Of a stretch of 23,001 nt of DNA, positions 132-17,215 are shown one piece after another. Where the stretch lies: positions 1 through 23,001 of IMG/VR virus record IMGVR_UViG_3300047586_000035; one strand, given 5' to 3'. The translations under genes and the position numbers were made by a program. The DNA comes from a virus. Numbering within the stretch: position 1 is the first letter of the stretch; the number at the start of each line of letters is the position of its first letter. The notes below the pieces were generated by a model. It was not told the origin of the DNA, made no database searches, and saw nothing but the letters and a program-made list of their open reading frames with translations.

Positions 132-1214
132 CTAGCTCTCGCCGCGCTTGATGGCGGCGAGCAGTTGTGTGCGTTCGGCGGCATTGAGTCCGCGCTTCGG
201 ATTGGCAGTCAGCCAGGCCGGGAACAGACGACCGGCGAGCTTGCGTCCGTCGATGCCGGCGGTGTCCGCAGCCTCGCGCACCTCTTCCATCGTGACTTCG
301 GGCGGCGGGGCGGCTGGCTGGGGCACGGCTTCTTCTGGCGGCAGGAATCCGTCTCCCGGTAGTTCCGGCGGCTCGCCGAGCGGCGGGTCGTTGGTACGCG
401 CCATGTCCGCGCGGTCGGGCAGAGCGGCGCTCGGCGGGCTGGCGGGCCGCGCGACACGTTCGCGCCGGTTGACCGGGCCCGACGGCAGGCGCTCAGCCGG
501 CGCCGCGATCTGTGCGACGGGCGTCCCGCCGCCGAGCAGGTCCATCGGCCGGACGTCGATGTCGATGGTCGGTACCGTCCAGTTGCGCGTCTGGACGCTC
601 TCATTGCCGTCCTTGAGCACCTTGACCTTGCGGCTGCGGTTGACGATGCGCAGATGGGCCGGCACGCGATGGCCCAGGCTCGTGGCCATCGAGAGATACT
701 CGGCGGCGCCGGCGAGTTCGACCGCGGCGTAGTGGCCGTGGCTCTCCAGGCGCCATAGGCCGAGGCCCGGGAGCTCAGGCAGGATCACGTTGAGCCGCGT
801 CGTGGGCTTGCAGGCCTTGCCGTTCTTCGCGAGCTCGGCACGCTCGGTCTTGTCCTCGGGACACGAGCACGGCTCGTCGGCCAGGACGTTGCGGCCGCCC
901 GTACCTTCGCACCGCCGCTTGCAGCCCCCGGCATCCCAAAGCTCCCACCACTGGCTCATCGCCTCGCCGGGGGGCAGCATGATCGGCAGCGTCTCGGCGG
1001 TGATGACGACTTCCCACTGATCGTTCCAGGCGCCGGGCGTGCCACCGTAGAGTCGGGCAGCCTCCGCGATCAACTCCTTGTTCTGGCTCGTGAGCCGGAA
1101 CGTCTCCAGCTTGCGCGGTCGCTTCTTGCCGGCCTGGCCGGCGATGTCGACCTGATCCCCGGTGCGGATGCGACCGAGTTCTACCATCTGTCGCTGAATG
1201 TCGATCATTGGCAT
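132..1214 (-). CDS. Recombination-directionality-factor-like protein (phiC31 Gp3-like)
   Basis: A 360-residue protein. The N-terminal 230 residues match, from memory, a family widespread in actinophages and annotated as phiC31 Gp3-like recombination directionality factor. Recognisable parts are the opening GRIRTGD and KRPRKLETFRLTS (residues 14-43), LYGGTPGAW (55-63), a cysteine cluster (C98, C102, C116, C118, C135) likely to bind zinc, and LPGLGLWRLESHGHYAAVELAG (148-169). Residues 230-300 are a proline-rich linker and the C-terminus looks helical. In phiC31 such a factor binds the serine integrase and switches it to excision. The start at 1214 is two bases after the HNH stop and has GGAAAGG upstream, so an in-frame upstream ATG (1310) inside HNH is rejected. 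No integrase lies in the window; many family members are untested, so the RDF role is inferred. Confidence 0.6.
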   Translation of the reverse strand: MPMIDIQRQMVELGRIRTGDQVDIAGQAGKKRPRKLETFRLTSQNKELIAEAARLYGGTPGAWNDQWEVVITAETLPIMLPPGEAMSQWWELWDAGGCKRRCEGTGGRNVLADEPCSCPEDKTERAELAKNGKACKPTTRLNVILPELPGLGLWRLESHGHYAAVELAGAAEYLSMATSLGHRVPAHLRIVNRSRKVKVLKDGNESVQTRNWTVPTIDIDVRPMDLLGGGTPVAQIAAPAERLPSGPVNRRERVARPASPPSAALPDRADMARTNDPPLGEPPELPGDGFLPPEEAVPQPAAPPPEVTMEEVREAADTAGIDGRKLAGRLFPAWLTANPKRGLNAAERTQLLAAIKRGES

Positions 1215-1216
1215 GG

Positions 1217-1564
1217 TCAGGCCACCCCTTTCCAATCGGCCCGGAAGGGCAGACCGCGGCGGATGTTCTCCGCCTTGGTAACCGGCTCGAGATGGGCCGG
1301 ATTGACGCACTGCCGGTTGCGGCAGAGATGGTCGACCTCGAACCCCTCAGGGATCGGGCCCACGAGCAGTTCATAGATCGCACGATGCGCGTAGGTGATC
1401 CGCCCGCCCGGAGTCGATACGACCCCATAGCCGGCGCGAGAGGTCGCCCGCTGCCAGTTCCAGCAGTCGAAGAGCGTGCGCTCGAGCGGAAGGCCCAGGG
1501 CGATCCGCACCGACATCGGGGCCCCAATCGGGACGAGTGTCCGCAGCCCACGTGAGGCTGTCAT
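1217..1564 (-). CDS. HNH endonuclease
   Basis: A 115-residue single-domain HNH nuclease. The core runs from AHRAIYELLVGPIP (residues 59-72) through VDHLC (77-81), with H79 as the likely general base, to CVNPAHLEPVTKAENIRRG (86-104). In that stretch N88, H91 and N100 would complete the beta-beta-alpha-metal motif. The upstream CWNWQ...GYG segment is also typical of this phage/homing HNH group. Its ATG overlaps the stop of the RecB-like nuclease gene (ATGA at 1561-1564), and its stop is two bases before the RDF-like gene. It could be a free-standing homing nuclease or a phage DNA-processing enzyme. Packaging HNH proteins normally sit beside the terminase, which is 20 kb away here. Confidence 0.85.
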   Translation of the reverse strand: MTASRGLRTLVPIGAPMSVRIALGLPLERTLFDCWNWQRATSRAGYGVVSTPGGRITYAHRAIYELLVGPIPEGFEVDHLCRNRQCVNPAHLEPVTKAENIRRGLPFRADWKGVA

Positions 1565-3384: not shown

Positions 3385-3581
3385 CACTGCCTCTCTTCCT
3401 GCCGCAGCCGTGCCGCGATCGGATCGTCGGCCGCAGCCGGACCGCTCCACGGCAACTCAGCCCGATAGACCGTGCGCCCTGGCGCCCGCAGTTCGGGATG
3501 GCGGCGCAGCGCCTCGCCGAGATCGTGGAGACGGGTTGAGTACCCGAGCCGGCGGAGGTTGGAGCGGTGACGGTTCCTCAT
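3384..3581 (-). CDS. Small hypothetical protein
   Basis: 65 residues, MRNRHRSNLRRLGYSTRL..., with an arginine-rich basic N-terminus and an acidic-basic C-terminus. The ATG overlaps the stop of the octapeptide-repeat gene (ATGA, 3578-3581) and its TGA overlaps the next ATG, which is the main evidence that it is translated. No known domain was recognised. The N-terminal repeats of R, H and L suggest a short nucleic-acid-binding helix, but that is only a guess. Confidence 0.6.
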   Translation of the reverse strand: MRNRHRSNLRRLGYSTRLHDLGEALRRHPELRAPGRTVYRAELPWSGPAAADDPIAARLRQEERQ

Positions 3582-4471
3582 GCCGTGACCTTCGGCTTCC
3601 GCGCACGCTTCGGCTTCACGACCGGGAGCGGATCACCGTCGGCGTCCACCTCGACGATCGGGCCGCAGATGCGCGGCGCCTTCACCTTGTTGGCGCCGTA
3701 GCCGGGCTCGACGACGACCATCTCGTCGAGGCGTACCGGGCAGGCCAGGTAGTGCTTTGTGCCGTCACCGTTGATCTGCCGCGCCATCCGTGGGCGGGGT
3801 GAGAAGTGAAGGCCGCCGCCGCACTCGGGCCGGTCGTTCCAGTCGGGGGCTACCGGCTGCTCGCCGGGGCGATAGGAGATGCCGCAGCGCCGGGCATAGC
3901 TTGTGCTGTAGTCGTCGTCGGTTGCCTTGTAGAGCGTCGCCACGCCATCGACGACCTCGACGCCGTAGAAATCACAGAAGGCCTCCGGCGAGTCGATCGG
4001 AGGAACCTCGATCTGGATGCCCCCCGTGACCTGCGGATTGCCGCCGTACGCGCGGACGATGTGGATGGCGACGTACTTGGAGGCCCGGACGGTCGCTGAG
4101 TCCCAGGCCTCGACGGTCGCTGAGCCCCAGGCCCGGACGGTCGCTGAGCCCGAGGCCCGGACGGTCGCTGAGCCCGAGGCCCGGACGGTCGCTGAGTCCG
4201 AGGCCCGGACGGTCGCTGAGTCCCAGGCCCGGACGGTCGCTGAGCCCCAGGCCTCGACGGTCGCTGAGCCCCAGGCCCGGACGGTCGCTGAGCCCGAGGC
4301 CCGGACGGTCGCTGAGTCCGAGGCCTCGACGGTCGCTGAGCCCGAGGCCCGGACGGTCGCTGAGCCCCTCACGGAGAAGTGGCCGGAGCCTCGGCAGACG
4401 ATCAGATCGAGCGGGCCCGCCTTCGCCAGGGCTGCGTCAAGTTCGGCTTGGGTCGTGACTTCGTACTGCAT
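3578..4471 (-). CDS. Octapeptide-repeat (beta-solenoid-like) phage protein
   Basis: 297 residues in three parts. Residues 1-35 form a short N-terminal domain (MQYEVTTQAELDAALAKAG...). Residues 36-131 are twelve exact-length octapeptides of the form [GD]SATV[RE]A[SW], and a degenerate continuation (KYVAIHIVRAYGG...) follows to about 160. The C-terminal part (about 160-285) contains LYKATDDDYSTSY, PDWNDRPECGGGLHFSPRP and ACPVRLDEMVVV. I recall this C-terminal pattern together with 'SATV' repeats in other actinophage proteins of unknown function. Strictly periodic Gly/Ser-Ala-Thr-Val repeats would be expected to coil into a beta-solenoid. Stop overlaps the next ATG. No signal peptide or membrane segment is seen. 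Confidence 0.85.
   Translation of the reverse strand: MQYEVTTQAELDAALAKAGPLDLIVCRGSGHFSVRGSATVRASGSATVEASDSATVRASGSATVRAWGSATVEAWGSATVRAWDSATVRASDSATVRASGSATVRASGSATVRAWGSATVEAWDSATVRASKYVAIHIVRAYGGNPQVTGGIQIEVPPIDSPEAFCDFYGVEVVDGVATLYKATDDDYSTSYARRCGISYRPGEQPVAPDWNDRPECGGGLHFSPRPRMARQINGDGTKHYLACPVRLDEMVVVEPGYGANKVKAPRICGPIVEVDADGDPLPVVKPKRARKPKVTA
4079..4366 (-). repeat. Twelve tandem 24-bp coding repeats
   Basis: Twelve head-to-tail 24-bp units with no spacers, all in frame inside the preceding coding region. The core ACGGTCGCTGAG (plus strand) is constant. Variation is confined to three codons per unit: GGC/GAC (G or D), CGG/GAG (R or E) and TCG/TGG (S or W). Near-identity at DNA level implies recent expansion or recombinational homogenisation. 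Confidence 0.95.
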
Positions 4472-7113: not shown

Positions 7114-7161
7114 GGGGCGGTGCGCGGAGGCCCCACGTTCCGCGCGAAATGGGAGGATGAG

Positions 7162-7803
7162 ATGAAGCGTTTGATGGTGGGAACTTTGGTTGCGGCCGCG
7201 ATCCTCGGCGGATGTGCGCTTGAGGCCAGTCCGTCAGCGCCTGGGAATGAGGCCACCGGTAGTCCGAACGCCACCGTTGCAGGGTCTGCACCCGCATCGG
7301 CCAAGCCAGTAGCCACGCCGACGAGTAAGTTCCGCACCTTCTCGGATGGGAAGGCCGTGGTCGGCACGGACATCCAGGCCGGGACCTATCGGACGCGCAC
7401 CGCGTCATCCGGCTGCTACTGGGAACGCCTCAGTGGCTTCGGCGGCACCATGGGTGAGATCTTGGCGAACGAGAATACCGACGGGCCTGCGGTCGTGACG
7501 ATCGCCGCCTCGGACAAGGGGTTCAGCTCACACCGTTGTGGGACCTGGACGACCGACCTCTCGGCGATAGTCTCGGGCAACACTTTCCCCGATGGCACGT
7601 ACATCGTGGGGACGGACCTGACCGCTGGGACCTACCGAGCGCCGGCCAGCCCCGGCTGCTACTGGCAGCGGCTCAAGGGGTTCAGCGGCTCAATGTCGGA
7701 CATCATCGCCAACGAGAATACCGATACCGGCGGCATCGTCACGATAGCGGCATCCGACAAGGGATTCCAGTCAAGCCGCTGCGGAACCTGGACCAGGCAA
7801 TAG
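7162..7803 (+). CDS. Secreted lipoprotein with duplicated Cys-containing domain (moron-type gene)
   Basis: 213 residues. The lipoprotein signal MKRLMVGTLVAAAILGGC ends in the lipobox LGGC (C18). A Ser/Ala/Pro/Thr-rich linker to about residue 55 follows, typical for spanning a cell wall. Then come two copies of a domain of about 65 residues, each of the form VGTD[IL].AGTYR...GCYW.RL.GF.G.M..I.ANENTD...VTIAASDKGF.S.RCGTW, with two cysteines per copy. Domains like this occur, from memory, in lipoproteins of high-GC Gram-positive and related bacteria. The start has GGGAGGA five bases upstream. It is on the plus strand between a minus-strand late operon and the regulator, with its own flanking hairpins, the usual setting of a lysogenic-conversion or superinfection-exclusion gene. 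The function is inferred from position only. Confidence 0.85.
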   Translation: MKRLMVGTLVAAAILGGCALEASPSAPGNEATGSPNATVAGSAPASAKPVATPTSKFRTFSDGKAVVGTDIQAGTYRTRTASSGCYWERLSGFGGTMGEILANENTDGPAVVTIAASDKGFSSHRCGTWTTDLSAIVSGNTFPDGTYIVGTDLTAGTYRAPASPGCYWQRLKGFSGSMSDIIANENTDTGGIVTIAASDKGFQSSRCGTWTRQ

Positions 7804-10900: not shown

Positions 10901-11574
10901 ACCTGATCGACCTTCGGAACGTTGTCGTCCTCGAGCGAGAAGTCGAAGTAGTCGCGGGTCGTGGTGCCGTTGGGATCGTCGCTGAGGTTGAACGGCGCGG
11001 CATCCACCTCATCGATGAAGTGGTGGAGGCGCAGCGAGTAGTCCACGTTGAGCTTGCCACCGGTCAGGGCCGTGATCTTGCTCGCCGCCTCCCGCAGACC
11101 TGACGGACCGAACTCCTGCTCAGGCTTGCCGTCGGCGCCGCCGGGCATCTGGCCGATGATCTCCTGGACCTCATCGCCGCATGTGATGCCGTGTGTGCCG
11201 TAGGTCTGGATGAGCCAGGTGAGTCGCTCCTTGTCGGTCTCGACGACGCTCCGCCAGCATCGCGGCACCACGTCCATATCCAGCAGCGCCGTGTAATCGG
11301 TGGCCGTCACGTCTTCGACGACCGCACTCCCCGGCTGGTCCTCGTCCGAATGCTTGACCGTGTCGATTAGCCCCTCGAAGGTTGTGACGCCGCTGATCTT
11401 GAGGCCCCAGTCCTTGAGCGGGGTGGCGGGCGGATCCACAAAGCGCACCGGGGCGGTCCCAGACTCGGCGGACGCCCGGCTCTCCGGTGTGACGCTGGTG
11501 AGGGGGAAGACGTAGTCGCTCCAATCCTCCCAACCGCCTCCGGCGTGACGGTCGACCTCGACCTTGAGCGTCAC
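7909..11574 (-). CDS. Tail hub / receptor-binding tail protein (minor tail protein)
   Basis: 1221 residues, the last gene of the late operon. Residues 1-345 look like the siphophage tail-hub (Tal/gp27-like) baseplate domain. Residues 380-555 resemble a carbohydrate-binding beta-sandwich (NLVANSFFGNALGTTWTVGANW...), and about 560-690 hold the 'GTMTADKFAA' type segment of phage host-specificity proteins. About 710-1020 is a Trp/Gly-rich repeat-like region, possibly a beta-propeller. The last 110 residues (NNWNPAGLATCSCIVIRPN...GNRFLGPAGANVVIRAYGSVDLVYD) match a C-terminal beta domain I recall from many phage tail fibres. It probably joins the tail tip to host recognition. ATGA overlap with the tape measure gene fixes the start. 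Domain limits are approximate. Confidence 0.8.
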   Translation of the reverse strand: MTLKVEVDRHAGGGWEDWSDYVFPLTSVTPESRASAESGTAPVRFVDPPATPLKDWGLKISGVTTFEGLIDTVKHSDEDQPGSAVVEDVTATDYTALLDMDVVPRCWRSVVETDKERLTWLIQTYGTHGITCGDEVQEIIGQMPGGADGKPEQEFGPSGLREAASKITALTGGKLNVDYSLRLHHFIDEVDAAPFNLSDDPNGTTTRDYFDFSLEDDNVPKVDQVVVFGCQLEAGAGLLTVTRTAPDAPAAAYRRIAPLVNDKLTSIAQCEAAGDAFLLAHRPRRAGKLKTVHAGLLAGQTVQITHAAHGLDAEPFRIVSVKPTPDTPDTAVYDVGFGDERLSQASIIGGSGGLADQIAGAAGVASDASRKLVDLSVGGANLVANSFFGNALGTTWTVGANWVFGYTPVSPELALWGSKTARATLAAQTAGELVTAPVPVARLDDYWFSVWTWIRAWTSGTVRIELREYNAADALLASTTIADLAAAETGFTAHRLHMGPNDELGRTGFDADTVAVRLAIFTAGASTLTCDVGGVQAERGRLATAYAPMPSEIADGSIDAATKLIAYSIVAGLVAAGTMTADKFAATLAWVSKLVAGDPAAGRIELDGTLANPQFAIYSPTNELMVRLGTDGAPMYFNGDLVAQTLTLIGAGEIRGAMSLAKDAVMTVQTGVQAPSAAPVLAQGLPATLALAQTNGWSSACGFAGDIGDAYTATGGGFYDPVGGADGATPCYVGVEADGLGSYRVTEWKRSDGTISRTTAITGWTAPEAVDGITRIGTSWYLTGGSPLLLIKVTRATGAYVGELDISARFLYGQGWQIGTDGTALYIVGWATTALTMRVVKCSAALAYVSSTTLAVPGAPGGKDWLGVRDFGQYDDGDGNGVCYWLDLVWADSATWGATCTLGEIYQFKADGSLVASTDWPEKANSMTTSGWWPQGLVWDGTQFCQFNSSDHTLQPYTNWSWTTATVPYWAGHAWYDDAAPTHETPISPRASITMTKRRQLTVTTPTIPVGGADDPNKVRIYMLPNATDPGAGNFKLQATDALTARTLTTYNAAGGADGAGTAFPGGAGGRITTPTHGWDIRANDTGSVPAAVGVAAIAGQAIAPASETVAGQMVTSGILSVSLTASVNNWNPAGLATCSCIVIRPNAAWDITGIVAQAHGFRLRLFNIGGFSTTLVWQSASSSVGNRFLGPAGANVVIRAYGSVDLVYDGLDANWCICAI

Positions 11575-13325
11575 CGTCGCACCAGCCGGCGCTGGAGGAT
11601 GCGGCCCAGGCGCTCGTCCTCAGCCTCACCGCCCGAGTAGTTCTCGATGTAGACGAGGGGTCCGCTGAACCCACCGCCACCCCCGAAGCCGCCCCCTCCG
11701 GCGAACGCCGCCCGCAGGCCTGACGCGGGCCCCTCCGGGACGACCATCTCGCCGCGGTGGATGATCGCCAGCATGTCATCGAGGATGTTCCAGGCACCGG
11801 CCGAGAGCCTCGGGATTGCTTTGATGGTGGGGAGGCCGACGGAGAAGCCGCCAACCCTGCCGACCAACGGAATGTCCACCGAAGGCACGGTGATCCTGAT
11901 CTTGTTCAGGAAGCCGATGAAGCTGTTGACCATGCCGATCACGCCGTTGATCGAGCCTTTGACGCCGGAGCTGATGCCATCCCAGACGCCCTTGAGGATC
12001 GAGGCCGCAGCCCCGAAGGCATCGCCGATGCTCTTGGCCACGGTCTGCACCGGCCCGATGAGGGCGTTGAAGATGGCCACGGCCGTGTTGATCTGCAATT
12101 TGAGCAGCGCGAGCCACGGGCTCAGGATCCTAGAGGCCATATCGACCAGCCATTTGAAGACCGCCACGACCCCGTCGATCACGCCACCGATCGCCGAGCC
12201 GATCGCCGAGAAGATGGCGATGATCGCATCGCGGAACGGTGGGCAGTTGTTCCACAGCCAGATCAGGCCCAGGATGAGCGCGGCGATGGCCGCGATCACC
12301 AGGATGATGGGGTTGGCCGCGAGAAACGCCATCGCCCCCGACAGCACGCCAGTGGCAGTGGCGGCGATGCCCTGCGCGGTGGCCAGGGCGGTATGCGCGA
12401 AGCTCAGACCCCACATGATCGGGCCCATGGCCATGAGGATGGGCGCCAGCTGGCCGGCGGCGCCTGCGATGTCGCCGAACTTGAAGCCGAGCTTCTCTAC
12501 CTCCGTCGCCAGGCCCTGGAGCGGCGTCCGCGTCTTGTTGAAGGCGTCGGACTGCGCTTCGATCACACCGGTCGAGCTCTGAACCTTCGCCCGGTATTCG
12601 GTCAGCTTGGCGCTGCTCATTCCGAGCGTCGCCAGCATCTTCTGGAGATCCCCATCGGACGAGTTGACGGCCGCCGCGAATTGCGCCTTCGCCGTCTTGC
12701 CCGTCATGCCGAGCTCGTTCTCCATGTAGCCGAGGATCGCCGCCGTGTCGTTCACGTCGAGGCCCATGGCCCGGATCTGCGGGCCGGCCTTCTGGACGAA
12801 GGCCAGGAAGTCGCTGATCGAGCCGCTGGTCTGTGTCGTGATGTAGCCGAAGGCGGACATCGCCTCGCCTTCTTGGCCTGCGTCGATCCCAAGGGCGCGC
12901 AATGCCACGCTGGCCTTGGCGAGTTCCACGCCGCTCTCTCCGGTCGCATCGGCAACCGTGTCCCAGTAGCTGGCGTATGCCTGAAGCGCAGCCTTGCCGT
13001 CGAGTCCCTGCTTGGTCCCCAGGCTCATCAGCGCCGTCATTTCTTCGACACTGTCGCCGGCGCCCATCACCTCCGTGATCCATTCGCGCAAGGTGGCAGC
13101 GCTTTCGCCTGTGGCCAGGCTCAGTTTCTCGACGCCGAACGTGTTCTCTTGCTGGCTGCGCGCCAGCCCCTCGAGCGCCACTCCGGCCGCAGCAATGGCG
13201 AGGCCGGCCGCTGCCCAGGACACGTTGATCGTATCGGCGGCCTTGCCGCCGGCGTCGCCGACTTGGGCCATCACCGCCGAGGCTTCGTCCTTCGCCCGGA
13301 TGATGATGTCCATGAGGCTGGCCAT
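11571..13325 (-). CDS. Tail tape measure protein
   Basis: 584 residues. The N-terminus MASLMDIIIRAKDEASAVMAQVGDAG is typical of TP901-type tape measures, followed by a long helical domain with the ATGES/LGTKQG/FLAFVQKAGPQIRAMGLDVNDTAAILGYME pattern. Hydrophobic segments lie at about 290-360 (PIILVIAAIAALILGLIWLW) and 366-400. The C-terminus is Gly-rich (GGGGFGGGGGF) with a basic end. At about 0.15 nm per residue the tail would be near 90 nm. No peptidase or muramidase domain was recognised. It starts one base after the T-extension stop, and its TGA overlaps the hub gene ATG. Confidence 0.9.
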   Translation of the reverse strand: MASLMDIIIRAKDEASAVMAQVGDAGGKAADTINVSWAAAGLAIAAAGVALEGLARSQQENTFGVEKLSLATGESAATLREWITEVMGAGDSVEEMTALMSLGTKQGLDGKAALQAYASYWDTVADATGESGVELAKASVALRALGIDAGQEGEAMSAFGYITTQTSGSISDFLAFVQKAGPQIRAMGLDVNDTAAILGYMENELGMTGKTAKAQFAAAVNSSDGDLQKMLATLGMSSAKLTEYRAKVQSSTGVIEAQSDAFNKTRTPLQGLATEVEKLGFKFGDIAGAAGQLAPILMAMGPIMWGLSFAHTALATAQGIAATATGVLSGAMAFLAANPIILVIAAIAALILGLIWLWNNCPPFRDAIIAIFSAIGSAIGGVIDGVVAVFKWLVDMASRILSPWLALLKLQINTAVAIFNALIGPVQTVAKSIGDAFGAAASILKGVWDGISSGVKGSINGVIGMVNSFIGFLNKIRITVPSVDIPLVGRVGGFSVGLPTIKAIPRLSAGAWNILDDMLAIIHRGEMVVPEGPASGLRAAFAGGGGFGGGGGFSGPLVYIENYSGGEAEDERLGRILQRRLVRR

Positions 13326-13326
13326 G

Positions 13327-13927
13327 TCAGCGTCTCCTTGAGCTCATGGCATCAGCCTGGCGGCGCCCGTACTCAGGGAGCGCCGCCACCAGAAACTCGT
13401 GCTGAGCCCAGCTGAGCTCACCCTGCGTTCTCGCCAGAGGTATCCCCGCCATCTGGAGCGCCAGCATCGTCTGGCCCTCGTCCGAGACCGCGAAACTGGC
13501 TGATCGCGGCGGCCTGGGAGAGGCCGGAGCGACGGATCACCTCCTGCCCGATCTCCTCGATGGTCGGGGCGTCGGCCTTCTGGACTTCGGCCAGGGTCAT
13601 GACTGGATCGACAAGGCCGTAGTGAGCGGCGAGCTGATTGGCCTCGTGACTCCCGCCGACCACGCTGGCCAGGTCGAGCGAGATTTGAGCCTCGCCAGCC
13701 GTTTCGCGCGGAATGGCGCCCTTGTCCAGATGGTCCGCAGGTGGCCGGATGCCGCGTCGGGTAGGGACGTCCCCGCCGACCTTCATGCCGGCCATCTGGG
13801 CGGCCTGGACCTCCTTCGCCTCCCCCGAGTGAAGCCGGCGAAGGATGACCTCGGCGCCGTCCAGCGCCGGAACCGCGAACGGCGCCGGCGCGGCGCCGGC
13901 GAGGATCAGGTCCTTGGTCGCCTTCAT
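13327..13927 (-). CDS. Tail assembly chaperone, frameshifted long form (G-T type)
   Basis: Proposed 199-residue product: 145 codons of the 13418-13927 frame up to TTT at 13493-13495, then 54 codons in the +1 frame. After the shift the peptide continues AVSDEGQTMLALQMAGIPLA and then RTQGELSWAQHEFLVAALPE before a basic end and TGA at 13327-13329, one base before the tape measure ATG. This downstream frame looks like true protein and like the T part of other chaperones, while the unshifted end (GPDDAGAPDGGDTSGENAG) looks like out-of-frame sequence. Reading CAG TTT CGC with P-site slippage from TTT to TTC gives a seamless ...ISQF-AVSDEG join. The T frame has no start of its own that would make a full protein. 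A sequencing indel is the main alternative. Confidence 0.65.
13418..13927 (-). CDS. Tail assembly chaperone, short form (G type)
   Basis: 169 residues, MKATKDLILAGAAPAPFAVPALDGAEVILRRLHSGEAKEV... The N-terminal beta region and helical middle (MTLAEVQKADAPTIEEIGQEVIRRSGLSQAAAISQF) are typical of siphophage tail chaperones, which bind the tape measure during tail assembly. Its position directly between tail tube and tape measure genes is diagnostic. ATG overlaps the tube gene stop (13924-13927). The last 24 residues are low-quality sequence, consistent with being the unshifted readthrough of a frameshift site. Confidence 0.8.
   Translation of the reverse strand: MKATKDLILAGAAPAPFAVPALDGAEVILRRLHSGEAKEVQAAQMAGMKVGGDVPTRRGIRPPADHLDKGAIPRETAGEAQISLDLASVVGGSHEANQLAAHYGLVDPVMTLAEVQKADAPTIEEIGQEVIRRSGLSQAAAISQFRGLGRGPDDAGAPDGGDTSGENAG
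13492..13495 (-). other. Candidate +1 ribosomal frameshift site (TTT C)
   Basis: In the chaperone frame the codons read CAG TTT CGC GGT. Slippage of the tRNA on TTT by one base to TTC opens the T frame. The +1 frame is closed by a TGA about 40 bases upstream (in GAGGTGATC, near 13533), so the shift must occur between there and the zero-frame stop at 13418. The exact codon is inferred from protein quality. Confidence 0.45.
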
Positions 13928-14928
13928 GAGGGGATGGCCTCCAGATCATCCGCGTCGTTGAGGACGCTGGCCAGAAGTTCCGAGCGAACCGTCGTCACGC
14001 CATCGTCGAGGACGATGTCGGTGGTCATGGCGCGGAGCTCGGTGGACTGCTTGACTTCGTCCCGTCCGGAGACGGGGAGCGAGACCTTGGAGAAGTGGAC
14101 CGAGGGCAGGTTGAGAGCGAGGCTGCCATCTGCACCGGCGGTCGCATTGATCGCGAGGCCCATGTCGACGGAGCCGGAGTCAGCCGGGCCGGTAGCGCCG
14201 CCCCAGAAGGCCTCCAGGTGGTCGAGGTTCTCGAAGTACAGATCGAGCCCGCCCGTGATGTCCCGTCCGCCGGCCACCAGGCGCCGCGGGAAGCGGCTCC
14301 CGATGCCGCGGCCGGATTCGGCCTTGACGCCGTTGGCGATCGTCAGCTTGAGGGCTCGGACCTTGGCCGAGATGTCCTCCGAGCTGCCGGCGTCGAGGGT
14401 GGCCGTGACCTCGTGGAAGGCTAGCGGGAACTCCTCGGGCAGCAGGAGATCGGCCTCCTCGGTCAGGGTGCCCTTGCTGTCCTTGGCCGCGACGACGTCC
14501 ATCGAGGCCTGGAGGATGTCGCTGGCCAGGTCCAGCTCCAGCTTGTCGGCGACGCAGCCGGCGAAGATGTGCTCGAAGACATCCTTGCCGATGCGGGCGG
14601 TGAAGCTGGGCAGGATGCTCTCGGCGGTGCCCCACATCTCGTGGAGGTTGTGCGGAGTGTCGCCCGTGAAGGCGTAGCCGCCGAGCACCCAGCGGAGCAT
14701 CGCGGCAATCGTCCGGATGTCCCAGCCATAGACGATGTTGCCCGACGGCGCGTAGAAGCCCGGGCGCCGCGTGCGGAGCCCGCGGCCGATGCCGCCCTGG
14801 TAGTAGGTCTCGGTGCCCGATGGGGTGTCGAGACTCGCGCTCTGGATGTCAACGTGGAAGGCGGCCTCTACCGGGTCGCCGAAGATGGCCTCGTTGCCGA
14901 AGCCGGCATAACGCAGAACAGGTGGCAT
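13924..14928 (-). CDS. Major tail tube protein
   Basis: 334 residues starting MPPVLRYAGFGNEAIFGDPVEAAFHVDI. The pattern of a long tail tube protein of the kind grouped as Phage_tube_2 is visible: N-terminal GFGNE.IFG, a beta-rich body (FPLAFHEVTATLDAGSSEDISAKVRALKLTIANGVKAESGRGIGSRFP), DLYFENLDHLEAFWGG near residue 240, and a C-terminal VHFSKVSLPVSGRDEVKQSTELRA strand region. Its order between the tail terminator and chaperone genes agrees. The start at 14928 lies two bases after the upstream stop; the in-frame ATG at 14997 lies inside that gene and is rejected. Confidence 0.85.
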   Translation of the reverse strand: MPPVLRYAGFGNEAIFGDPVEAAFHVDIQSASLDTPSGTETYYQGGIGRGLRTRRPGFYAPSGNIVYGWDIRTIAAMLRWVLGGYAFTGDTPHNLHEMWGTAESILPSFTARIGKDVFEHIFAGCVADKLELDLASDILQASMDVVAAKDSKGTLTEEADLLLPEEFPLAFHEVTATLDAGSSEDISAKVRALKLTIANGVKAESGRGIGSRFPRRLVAGGRDITGGLDLYFENLDHLEAFWGGATGPADSGSVDMGLAINATAGADGSLALNLPSVHFSKVSLPVSGRDEVKQSTELRAMTTDIVLDDGVTTVRSELLASVLNDADDLEAIPS

Positions 14929-14930
14929 GG

Positions 14931-15221
14931 TCAGGACTCCTTGTGGCTTCGCATGTGGGCCTTGAGCCCGAAGTCGCTCTTGCAGATGCGCCCGCACTCC
15001 GGGCAGGTGATGGCTTGGAGGACAGCCGCGGTGGCGCTGGCCACGTAGTTTCCGCGAGGAACGATGGCCTCCACGACCTGCTCGACCACGAGGCCGTACT
15101 TCGCCCCGATCTGTCGGGCCACTCGGGCATCGACCTCGATCTCCACCGAGCTCCGCGGGCGGAAGGATCGGCCGGCGACCACGACGGAAACCGGGCGCTT
15201 GTTGGTGACCTTGATCTTCAT
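14931..15221 (-). CDS. Small protein with C-terminal C2H2 zinc finger
   Basis: 96 residues. The first 55 form a small beta domain (KIKVTNKRPVSVVVAGRSFRPRSSVEIEV...VARQIGAKYGLVVEQVV) similar to short proteins encoded beside tail tube genes in other phages. A linker is followed by a textbook C2H2 finger: C73-x2-C76-x12-H89-x3-H93 with L86 in the core position. The ATG overlaps the tail terminator stop (15218-15221). A zinc finger fused to a tail-side structural protein is unexpected; it may be a structural zinc site or a DNA contact near the connector. Confidence 0.75.
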   Translation of the reverse strand: MKIKVTNKRPVSVVVAGRSFRPRSSVEIEVDARVARQIGAKYGLVVEQVVEAIVPRGNYVASATAAVLQAITCPECGRICKSDFGLKAHMRSHKES

Positions 15222-16107: not shown

Positions 16108-16520
16108 CGGTTGCTCATTCCTACGCTGCGCACGCCGTGGCGGCCATACAGGCGCAGGCGATCGAGAATGTCCTCGGAGAAGACGCGGGCGCGTAGCGTG
16201 GCCACGGCGAACTCGTCGATGCGCACGATCGGCGCCTGGCGGGTGGCCATCATCGTGCGCAGTGAATCGGCGGCGATGTCGGCGCCGATGCCGTTGAGGC
16301 CTGGCGGGATCTCCTCGATGGTCCCGGCGTCGTAGAGCGCGAGATAGTCGCGGCCGAGCTTCCGGTTCATCAGATCGCTCATCTCGGTGAGCAGCCCTTC
16401 GATGAACTCGGCCAAGGACTCGTCCACGCCGCTCTCCTCCTCCTCGTCCCATCCCAGGTCCTTGGGCTGGACGCCGACCCGACGGATGACGTCTTCGGCT
16501 GTGCTGTAGAAGGCGGTCAT
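16104..16520 (-). CDS. Head-tail connector (adaptor) protein
   Basis: 138 residues, MTAFYSTAEDVIRRVGVQPKDLGWDEEEESGVDESLAEFIEGLLTEMSDLMNRKLGRDY... It has the opening of phage adaptor proteins of the gp6/gp15 type: YSTAEDVIRRVG, a long acidic helix ending in MNRKLGRDY, then GIGADIAADSLRTMMATRQAPIVRIDEFAV. These bind the portal and join the tail. It follows the Stealth-like gene with ATGA overlap (16517-16520). Confidence 0.7.
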   Translation of the reverse strand: MTAFYSTAEDVIRRVGVQPKDLGWDEEEESGVDESLAEFIEGLLTEMSDLMNRKLGRDYLALYDAGTIEEIPPGLNGIGADIAADSLRTMMATRQAPIVRIDEFAVATLRARVFSEDILDRLRLYGRHGVRSVGMSNR

Positions 16521-17215
16521 GACATCGACCTTTCGTAGGGGGAGGGCTGGCGGAACATCGCCCGGATCTCCTTGCCGACCTTGCCCGCCTCAAAGCTGCC
16601 ATCGGAGGTGGAAACCCAGCCCATGCCCGCGATGATGCCGGAGGTCCGCGAGGTCTTCTTCATGTCTTCGATCTTGGAGCCGCCGAGCCCGGCGACCGCT
16701 CCGTACAGAGAGCGGTAGGCCAACGCCTTGAACGGGCCTTCCTTCAGGGCGCGCTCCAGGGTCTGGCGCAGGATGGCCTTGTCGAAGACCATCGGCATGT
16801 GCGTCTCGAAGCTCAGCGGCTCCGGGTAGCCCCAACGCCCCAGGAGCTTGAACGTCTGACGCTGCCCCATGATGTAGGACGAGCAGGCCTGGCCCTTGCG
16901 CCCGATGTAGTCGGAGAGTGGGCCGCGGTGGTACAGCGGGATCTCATCGACCGGCGTCAGGCAGAAGAAGTCGTCATTCCAGTAGCTGAACTGGCCGCTC
17001 AGCCGTTCCTGCTTGCAGGCCCAGAGCAGGTCGGCTGGCAGGTTGCTCCACTTCGTGCCCTTGGCACGCGAGGGCAGATGCTCCACGCCCTGGACCCAGC
17101 TCGCCTTGGCCCCGACGATCCAGACGCGACCGTGGGGCACGTTCGCCGCGAGCGAGCGCAGGCTGTAGCGGAGGTCTTCATAGACCCCTGCGCGGACCAG
17201 GTAGACGGCGTCCAT
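16517..17215 (-). CDS. Stealth-like phosphotransferase / glycosyltransferase
   Basis: 232 residues. Pieces match the conserved regions of Stealth (capsular polysaccharide phosphotransferase-type) proteins: MDAVYLVRAG at the N-terminus; YSLRSLAANVPHGRVWIVGAKASWV (17-41); KW.NLPADLLWACKQERLSGQFSYWNDDFF (55-84), with the acidic NDDFF; FETHMPMVF (136-144); and GWVSTSDGSFEAGKVG (199-214). Stealth enzymes transfer sugar-1-phosphate. Related enzymes are encoded beside structural genes in some actinophages, where virion proteins can be glycosylated. The likely target would be the capsid protein encoded just upstream. No Shine-Dalgarno sequence precedes its ATG, and a hairpin separates it from the capsid gene, so expression should be lower. 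Activity and substrate are inferred. Confidence 0.75.
   Translation of the reverse strand: MDAVYLVRAGVYEDLRYSLRSLAANVPHGRVWIVGAKASWVQGVEHLPSRAKGTKWSNLPADLLWACKQERLSGQFSYWNDDFFCLTPVDEIPLYHRGPLSDYIGRKGQACSSYIMGQRQTFKLLGRWGYPEPLSFETHMPMVFDKAILRQTLERALKEGPFKALAYRSLYGAVAGLGGSKIEDMKKTSRTSGIIAGMGWVSTSDGSFEAGKVGKEIRAMFRQPSPYERSMS

Follow-up and report, generated by a model that had tools for sequence, protein, structure and literature searches.

Frameshifting in the -1, -2 and +1 directions is described among tailed phages by Atkins et al. (PMC5009743), who are also our source for the roles of the lambda chaperones G and G-T, and who consider a +1 shift very likely for the tail assembly chaperone (TAC) of HSTV-2. 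For the TACs of HF1-like haloviruses, Dyall-Smith and colleagues proposed a +1 shift at TTT-CGC in six genomes (PMC7230728). The same kind of site is described in viruses of eukaryotes: a shift at UCC_UUU_CGU has been demonstrated for influenza A PA-X (PMC5009743, PMC8310308), and UUU_CGN has been proposed for amalgaviruses, where it is explained by P-site slippage from UUU to UUC and where the need for a rare A-site codon is doubted (PMC5052127). According to a paper presenting a prediction tool, forward frameshift sites have no general motif that has yet been identified (PMC10885494).

The DNA analyzed here, hereafter the window, is an entire IMG/VR virus record of 23,001 bases with a GC content of 67%. 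The minus strand carries the structural genes, which run from terminase through portal, capsid, connectors, tail tube, and TAC to tape measure (Table 1). The ATG of the TAC gene overlaps the stop codon of the tail tube gene, and the tape measure ATG is found at 13325-13323 on the minus strand. Three other minus-strand genes were noted along the way. A Stealth_CR2-like gene (PHROG_7999; 16517-17215) lies between the capsid and connector genes, and the methanogen virus PhiF3 carries a "putative glycosyltransferase" at the matching position. Between the connector and tail tube genes there is a 96-aa protein (14931-15221) with a C-terminal C2H2-like zinc finger that scores below the Pfam cut-off, and the gene at 3578-4471 encodes a protein rich in ASGSATVRA-like repeats with weak matches to DUF2807 and gp5-trimer.

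Table 1. Features of the predicted TAC gene and its neighbors in the window
Feature	Coordinates	Strand	Basis
Tail tube protein, predicted to partner the TAC long form	13924..14928	-	Pfam Phage_tube_2, E 1.2e-20
TAC 0 frame (predicted G-like short product, 169 aa)	13418..13927	-	PHROG_344 match; fold of residues 1-145; synteny tube-TAC-tape measure
Putative +1 shift site TTT_C	13492..13495	-	P-site Phe TTT 13495-13493; skipped C 13492; A-site CGC 13492-13490
0-frame tail beyond the site	13418..13491	-	24 residues plus stop when C 13492 is included; non-coding GC pattern; length varies in relatives
+1-frame extension (predicted T-like domain, 54 aa)	13327..13491	-	Stop TGA 13329-13327; homology to L037; coding GC pattern
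Tape measure protein, predicted client of the chaperone	11571..13325	-	PHROG_3981 tape measure, E 3.7e-21; Pfam PhageMin_Tail, E 2.4e-10

On the comparative evidence set out below, this gene very probably encodes a TAC of the lambda G/G-T type whose long form would be produced by programmed +1 ribosomal frameshifting at TTT_C. It has the overlapping frames between tube and tape measure, the TAC homology, and the extension conserved as protein that mark such chaperones. The first part matches the tail assembly chaperone family PHROG_344 at E 1.6e-5. An AlphaFold2 model of residues 1-145, the unshifted part (mean pLDDT 78), has the HK97 TAC 2OB9 as its top solved fold (probability 0.96 and TM 0.59 by target length, at an E of only 0.37), and among viral proteins its best fold match (E 6e-5) is uncharacterized and comes from the methanogen virus Drs3. 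Phages and viral contigs gave no match to the window TAC, genome contigs none to a TAC profile or the portal, and viral contigs none to the tape measure.

Both frames, the homology of each part, their junction, and the conserved site can be read directly from the DNA. In the 0 frame, TTT_CGC stands at 13495-13490 in the context CAG_TTT_CGC, and a stop follows 24 codons past TTT. The last 24 residues of this frame, those after Phe145, are RGLGRGPDDAGAPDGGDTSGENAG, while the +1 frame from the site encodes 54 aa, AVSDEGQTMLALQMAGIPLARTQGELSWAQHEFLVAALPEYGRRQADAMSSRRR, and its stop codon ends one base ahead of the tape measure ATG. An open +1 frame would be no evidence by itself, since the -1 frame is also open in DNA of 67% GC; composition is more telling. 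GC at codon positions 1/2/3 is 0.76/0.48/0.85 in frame 0 upstream of the site and 0.70/0.52/0.80 in frame +1 downstream of it, and all genes of the window together give 0.66/0.50/0.86. Past the site, the same DNA has non-coding patterns both in frame 0 (0.88/0.71/0.50) and in frame -1 (0.50/0.80/0.70). Coding periodicity moves from frame 0 to frame +1 at the site, and the first-pass annotation, which had taken the 24 terminal residues for out-of-frame sequence and the +1 peptide for a convincing protein running up to the tape measure start, was right on both counts.

That annotation had also proposed a homologue search for the +1 peptide, and homologues do exist. The closest comparison, with the +1 peptide of record L037 (related records are given L numbers here), shows 43% identity over 44 aa (E 2e-12), starting with the residue that directly follows the site, and the homologues begin at that same point. 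Across five Haloferacalesvirus genomes, dN/dS of the extension is 0.14-0.23. Searched alone against phages, the window peptide gave no significant match: the hits, for the most part streptococcal phage proteins that were unnamed or of the Gp15 family, had E values of about 1 or worse.

Relatives were reached by several routes. The tail tube led to L016 (49%), to L017, and to a prophage on a plasmid of the Bacillota species Pontibacillus chungwhensis. In the L016 chaperone gene the site reads TCC_TTT_CGC and a homologous +1 peptide follows; L017 has CCC_TTT_CGT. The Pontibacillus gene, whose first part also matches PHROG_344, has CGG_TTT_CGT and is annotated as two hypothetical proteins. Searches with the L016 fusion found the methanogen viruses PhiF3 (CAA_TTT_CAT), Drs3 (AAA_TTT_CCT), and vir075 (GAC_TTT_CCT), and, via HRTV-25, the haloarchaeal Hafunaviridae; IMG/VR profile searches added L030, L032, L033, L037, L039, L042-L045, L049, and L056. 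The L017 TAC found no match among phages, nor did the Pontibacillus TAC among phages or viral contigs. Contigs L003-L015, which are related through the capsid, have no convincing homologue of the window TAC where the tail region is present, and are for that reason irrelevant to the question.

An in-frame TTTC is present in the overlap of all 27 distinct records that have a +1 extension (the window and 26 others), and the next commonest 4-mer is found in 17. These records are mostly archaeal tailed viruses and comprise haloarchaeal and methanogen viruses, the Bacillota plasmid prophage, and the window, which is probably from an actinobacterial phage. The shortest overlaps, those of L042, PhiF3, Drs3, and L032, leave only 5-8 candidate codons. 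Given each record's own codon use, an overlap would contain TTTC by chance with a probability of 0.005-0.13; multiplied over 19 lineages this gives about 2e-30, a guide only because the lineages share ancestry. The invariant junction residue is Phe and is always encoded by TTT, which is a small minority of Phe codons in most of the haloviruses and accounts for 7 of 132 in the window. The A-site codon is CGN in 20 of the 27, CCU in five, CAU in one, and CUU in one; the E-site codon varies, with UCC in six. In the relatives the 0-frame stop lies 2-25 codons past the site, and since this distance varies so widely, the stop is not a fixed part of it. Neither a conserved upstream Shine-Dalgarno-like element nor a conserved downstream structural stimulator (mean z -0.55) was seen among the 27 records. 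The proposal of a +1 event at TTT-C (13492-13495) in a TAC is supported as to site, direction, and function.

The extension is in the -1 frame in five relatives, and each of these carries a canonical -1 heptamer: A_AAU_UUU in L038 and L058, G_GGU_UUU in L055, A_AAA_AAG in L040, and A_AAA_AAC in L046. No heptamer of the form X_XXY_YYZ is present in the overlap of the window, where the extension lies in +1. Direction and shift motif therefore change together within the family. In L038, L058, and L055 the two frames join at the homologous Phe, as can be seen by comparing KF-SESPEGQE in L058 with NF-AESQEGQR in L049, a +1 record. A TTTC stands beside the heptamer in three of the five -1 relatives, so TTTC by itself does not set the direction. 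We consider it likely that one TAC family, present in viruses of archaea and of bacteria alike, has UUU_C as its standing +1 site, that the A site needs only an initial C, and that +1 and -1 may replace one another at a single joint by changes as small as that between AAC_TTT_CGC and A_AAT_TTT_C.

Phe codons are read by a single tRNA-Phe with anticodon GAA, which pairs by wobble on UUU and fully on UUC, so a +1 slip at this site improves pairing. Most ribosomes would pass TTT_CGC in frame and stop 24 codons on to give the 169-aa G-like chaperone. In a minority, tRNA-Phe in the P site would slip from UUU to UUC and enter the +1 frame, and the product would be a 199-aa fusion that carries the conserved C-terminal domain. 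A hungry A-site codon is not evident, because CGC is the commonest Arg codon by the phage's own usage (160 of 323) and so is not rare on that measure. By analogy with lambda G, the short form may bind along the tape measure protein, the long form may recruit tail tube subunits, and the ratio of short to long would matter for tail assembly. We infer the slippage itself, its efficiency, and the division of labor between the products.

The extension frame would also be reached by a -2 slip, which gives an identical frame and is used by phage Mu (PMC5009743). The GenBank note "putative programmed translational -2 frameshift" appears in six records that we examined. A slip of this kind is nevertheless very unlikely here. 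Two bases back, tRNA-Phe would meet AGU (as in the window), CCU, AAU, ACU, CGU, or GGU across the 27 records and in none of them UUN, and the invariant C in fourth position is explained only by +1 re-pairing to UUC. Because no UUN codon is available two bases back, the -2 notes in the halovirus records are probably wrong. The predicted junction reads ...ISQFAVSD... after a +1 shift, with the tryptic peptide SGLSQAAAISQFAVSDEGQTMLALQMAGIPLAR, and ...ISQFFAVSD... after a -2 shift. Among the GenBank haloviruses L021-L024, L026, and L029, those with an annotated shift carry the -2 note, yet every site is TTT_CGN and the shift is probably +1; the TAC of L025 (HF2) is annotated as two genes, not as a -2 product.

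Two-gene annotations, found for HF2, VOLN27B, and the Pontibacillus record, would fit a separate small gene in the +1 frame that is translated from an internal start or by reinitiation with no fusion formed, and the window does have an in-frame ATG eight codons past the site. Conservation, however, begins at the residue directly after the site and hence upstream of that ATG. The extensions of Drs3 and vir075 lack ATG, GTG, and TTG in their first 38 codons, and those of L017 and L032 lack them throughout, which argues against separate initiation. Separate initiation also leaves the invariant TTT_C unexplained, and we regard it as extremely improbable.

A one-base assembly or sequencing error in a continuous gene was the main alternative put forward in the first-pass annotation, and the window is indeed a single metagenomic contig; as a general account it fails and retains next to no probability, since the frame breaks at the same Phe in another 26 distinct records, and several of these are complete isolate genomes. 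None of the relatives found has the single uninterrupted frame that the proposed comparison was meant to look for, and retention of the slip site in 26 other tailed viruses indicates that the frame break is programmed. Transcriptional slippage was rejected because there are just three T residues at the site.

Other genes bear on the origin of the window. The portal is closest to those of actinophages, and these account for nearly all of 935 records, at identities reaching about 36-37%. In the annotated collections, the tail tube matches archaeal viruses and a Bacillota plasmid only. The window appears as a mosaic, with an actinophage-like portal and with a tail tube and TAC closest to those of archaeal tailed viruses and the Bacillota plasmid prophage. 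A Gp3-like recombination directionality factor (132-1310, minus strand; E 3.7e-41) suggests a temperate phage of the serine-integrase type, and no integrase was identified within the record. On the strand opposite the structural genes, beside an HTH regulator, there is a predicted lipoprotein of 227 aa with two similar repeats (7120-7803, plus strand). Within the plasmid collection it matches actinobacterial plasmids only, and it is possibly a lysogenic-conversion gene. As to host and lifestyle, our best guess is that the phage is a temperate siphophage of actinobacteria whose tail module is of the archaeal-virus type.

The first-pass annotation regarded a +1 shift in a TAC as a less common variant. 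The direction stands, but the rarity needs adjusting, as +1 shifts in haloarchaeal virus TACs had already been proposed, at TTT-CGC (PMC7230728) and for HSTV-2 (PMC5009743). In the literature searched, which left most subscription papers outside, only PMC7230728 pairs TTT-CGC with frameshifting, and no paper was found on ribosomal frameshifting in a methanogen-virus TAC. What is new within that literature is the breadth across archaeal and bacterial viruses, the tolerance of CCU, CAU, and CUU in the A site, the alternation of +1 and -1, and the evidence against -2 shifts. Predicting forward frameshift sites is difficult, and 27 diverse records of prokaryotic viruses provide a natural comparative set in which one can ask why UUU_C is slippery for bacterial and archaeal ribosomes, the homologues with a -1 shift at the same joint serving as internal controls. 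The site also offers a simple annotation rule for TAC fusions whose current entries show a pair of hypothetical proteins or a -2 shift.

The closest described systems resemble the window to different degrees. The HF1 group (HF1, HF2, Serpecor1, and others) shares the gene family, its position, TTT_CGC, the +1 extension, and the tape measure gene that follows, but these are contractile-tailed haloarchaeal viruses with AAG_TTT_CGC, a stop two codons past CGC, and little sequence identity to the window. HSTV-2, a Halorubrum myovirus and in this unlike the window phage, likewise has a +1 extension, and we read TCC_TTT_CGC from its sequence. Lambda G and G-T agree in function, in gene order, and in the making of a short and a long chaperone from one gene; lambda differs in its -1 slip at a canonical heptamer, a direction also used by the five members of the window's own TAC family. 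The TAC extension of phage Mu is in the same frame as that of the window, but is reached by a -2 shift whose re-pairing is impossible here. The release factor 2 gene, prfB, shares a +1 P-site slip on bacterial ribosomes, whereas the window has CGC and not a stop in the A site and no upstream Shine-Dalgarno-like element. PA-X and the plant amalgaviruses are alike in shift site and in P-site re-pairing from UUU to UUC, although the genes are unrelated, the ribosomes are eukaryotic, and CGN is rare in their hosts whereas CGC is common in the phage; the TAC family, unlike these UUU_CGN systems, also has CCU, CAU, and CUU in the A site. If UUU_C is indeed a standing +1 site, these prokaryotic viruses would use the same slip as eukaryotic RNA viruses, and the -2 annotations of the haloviruses would be wrong.
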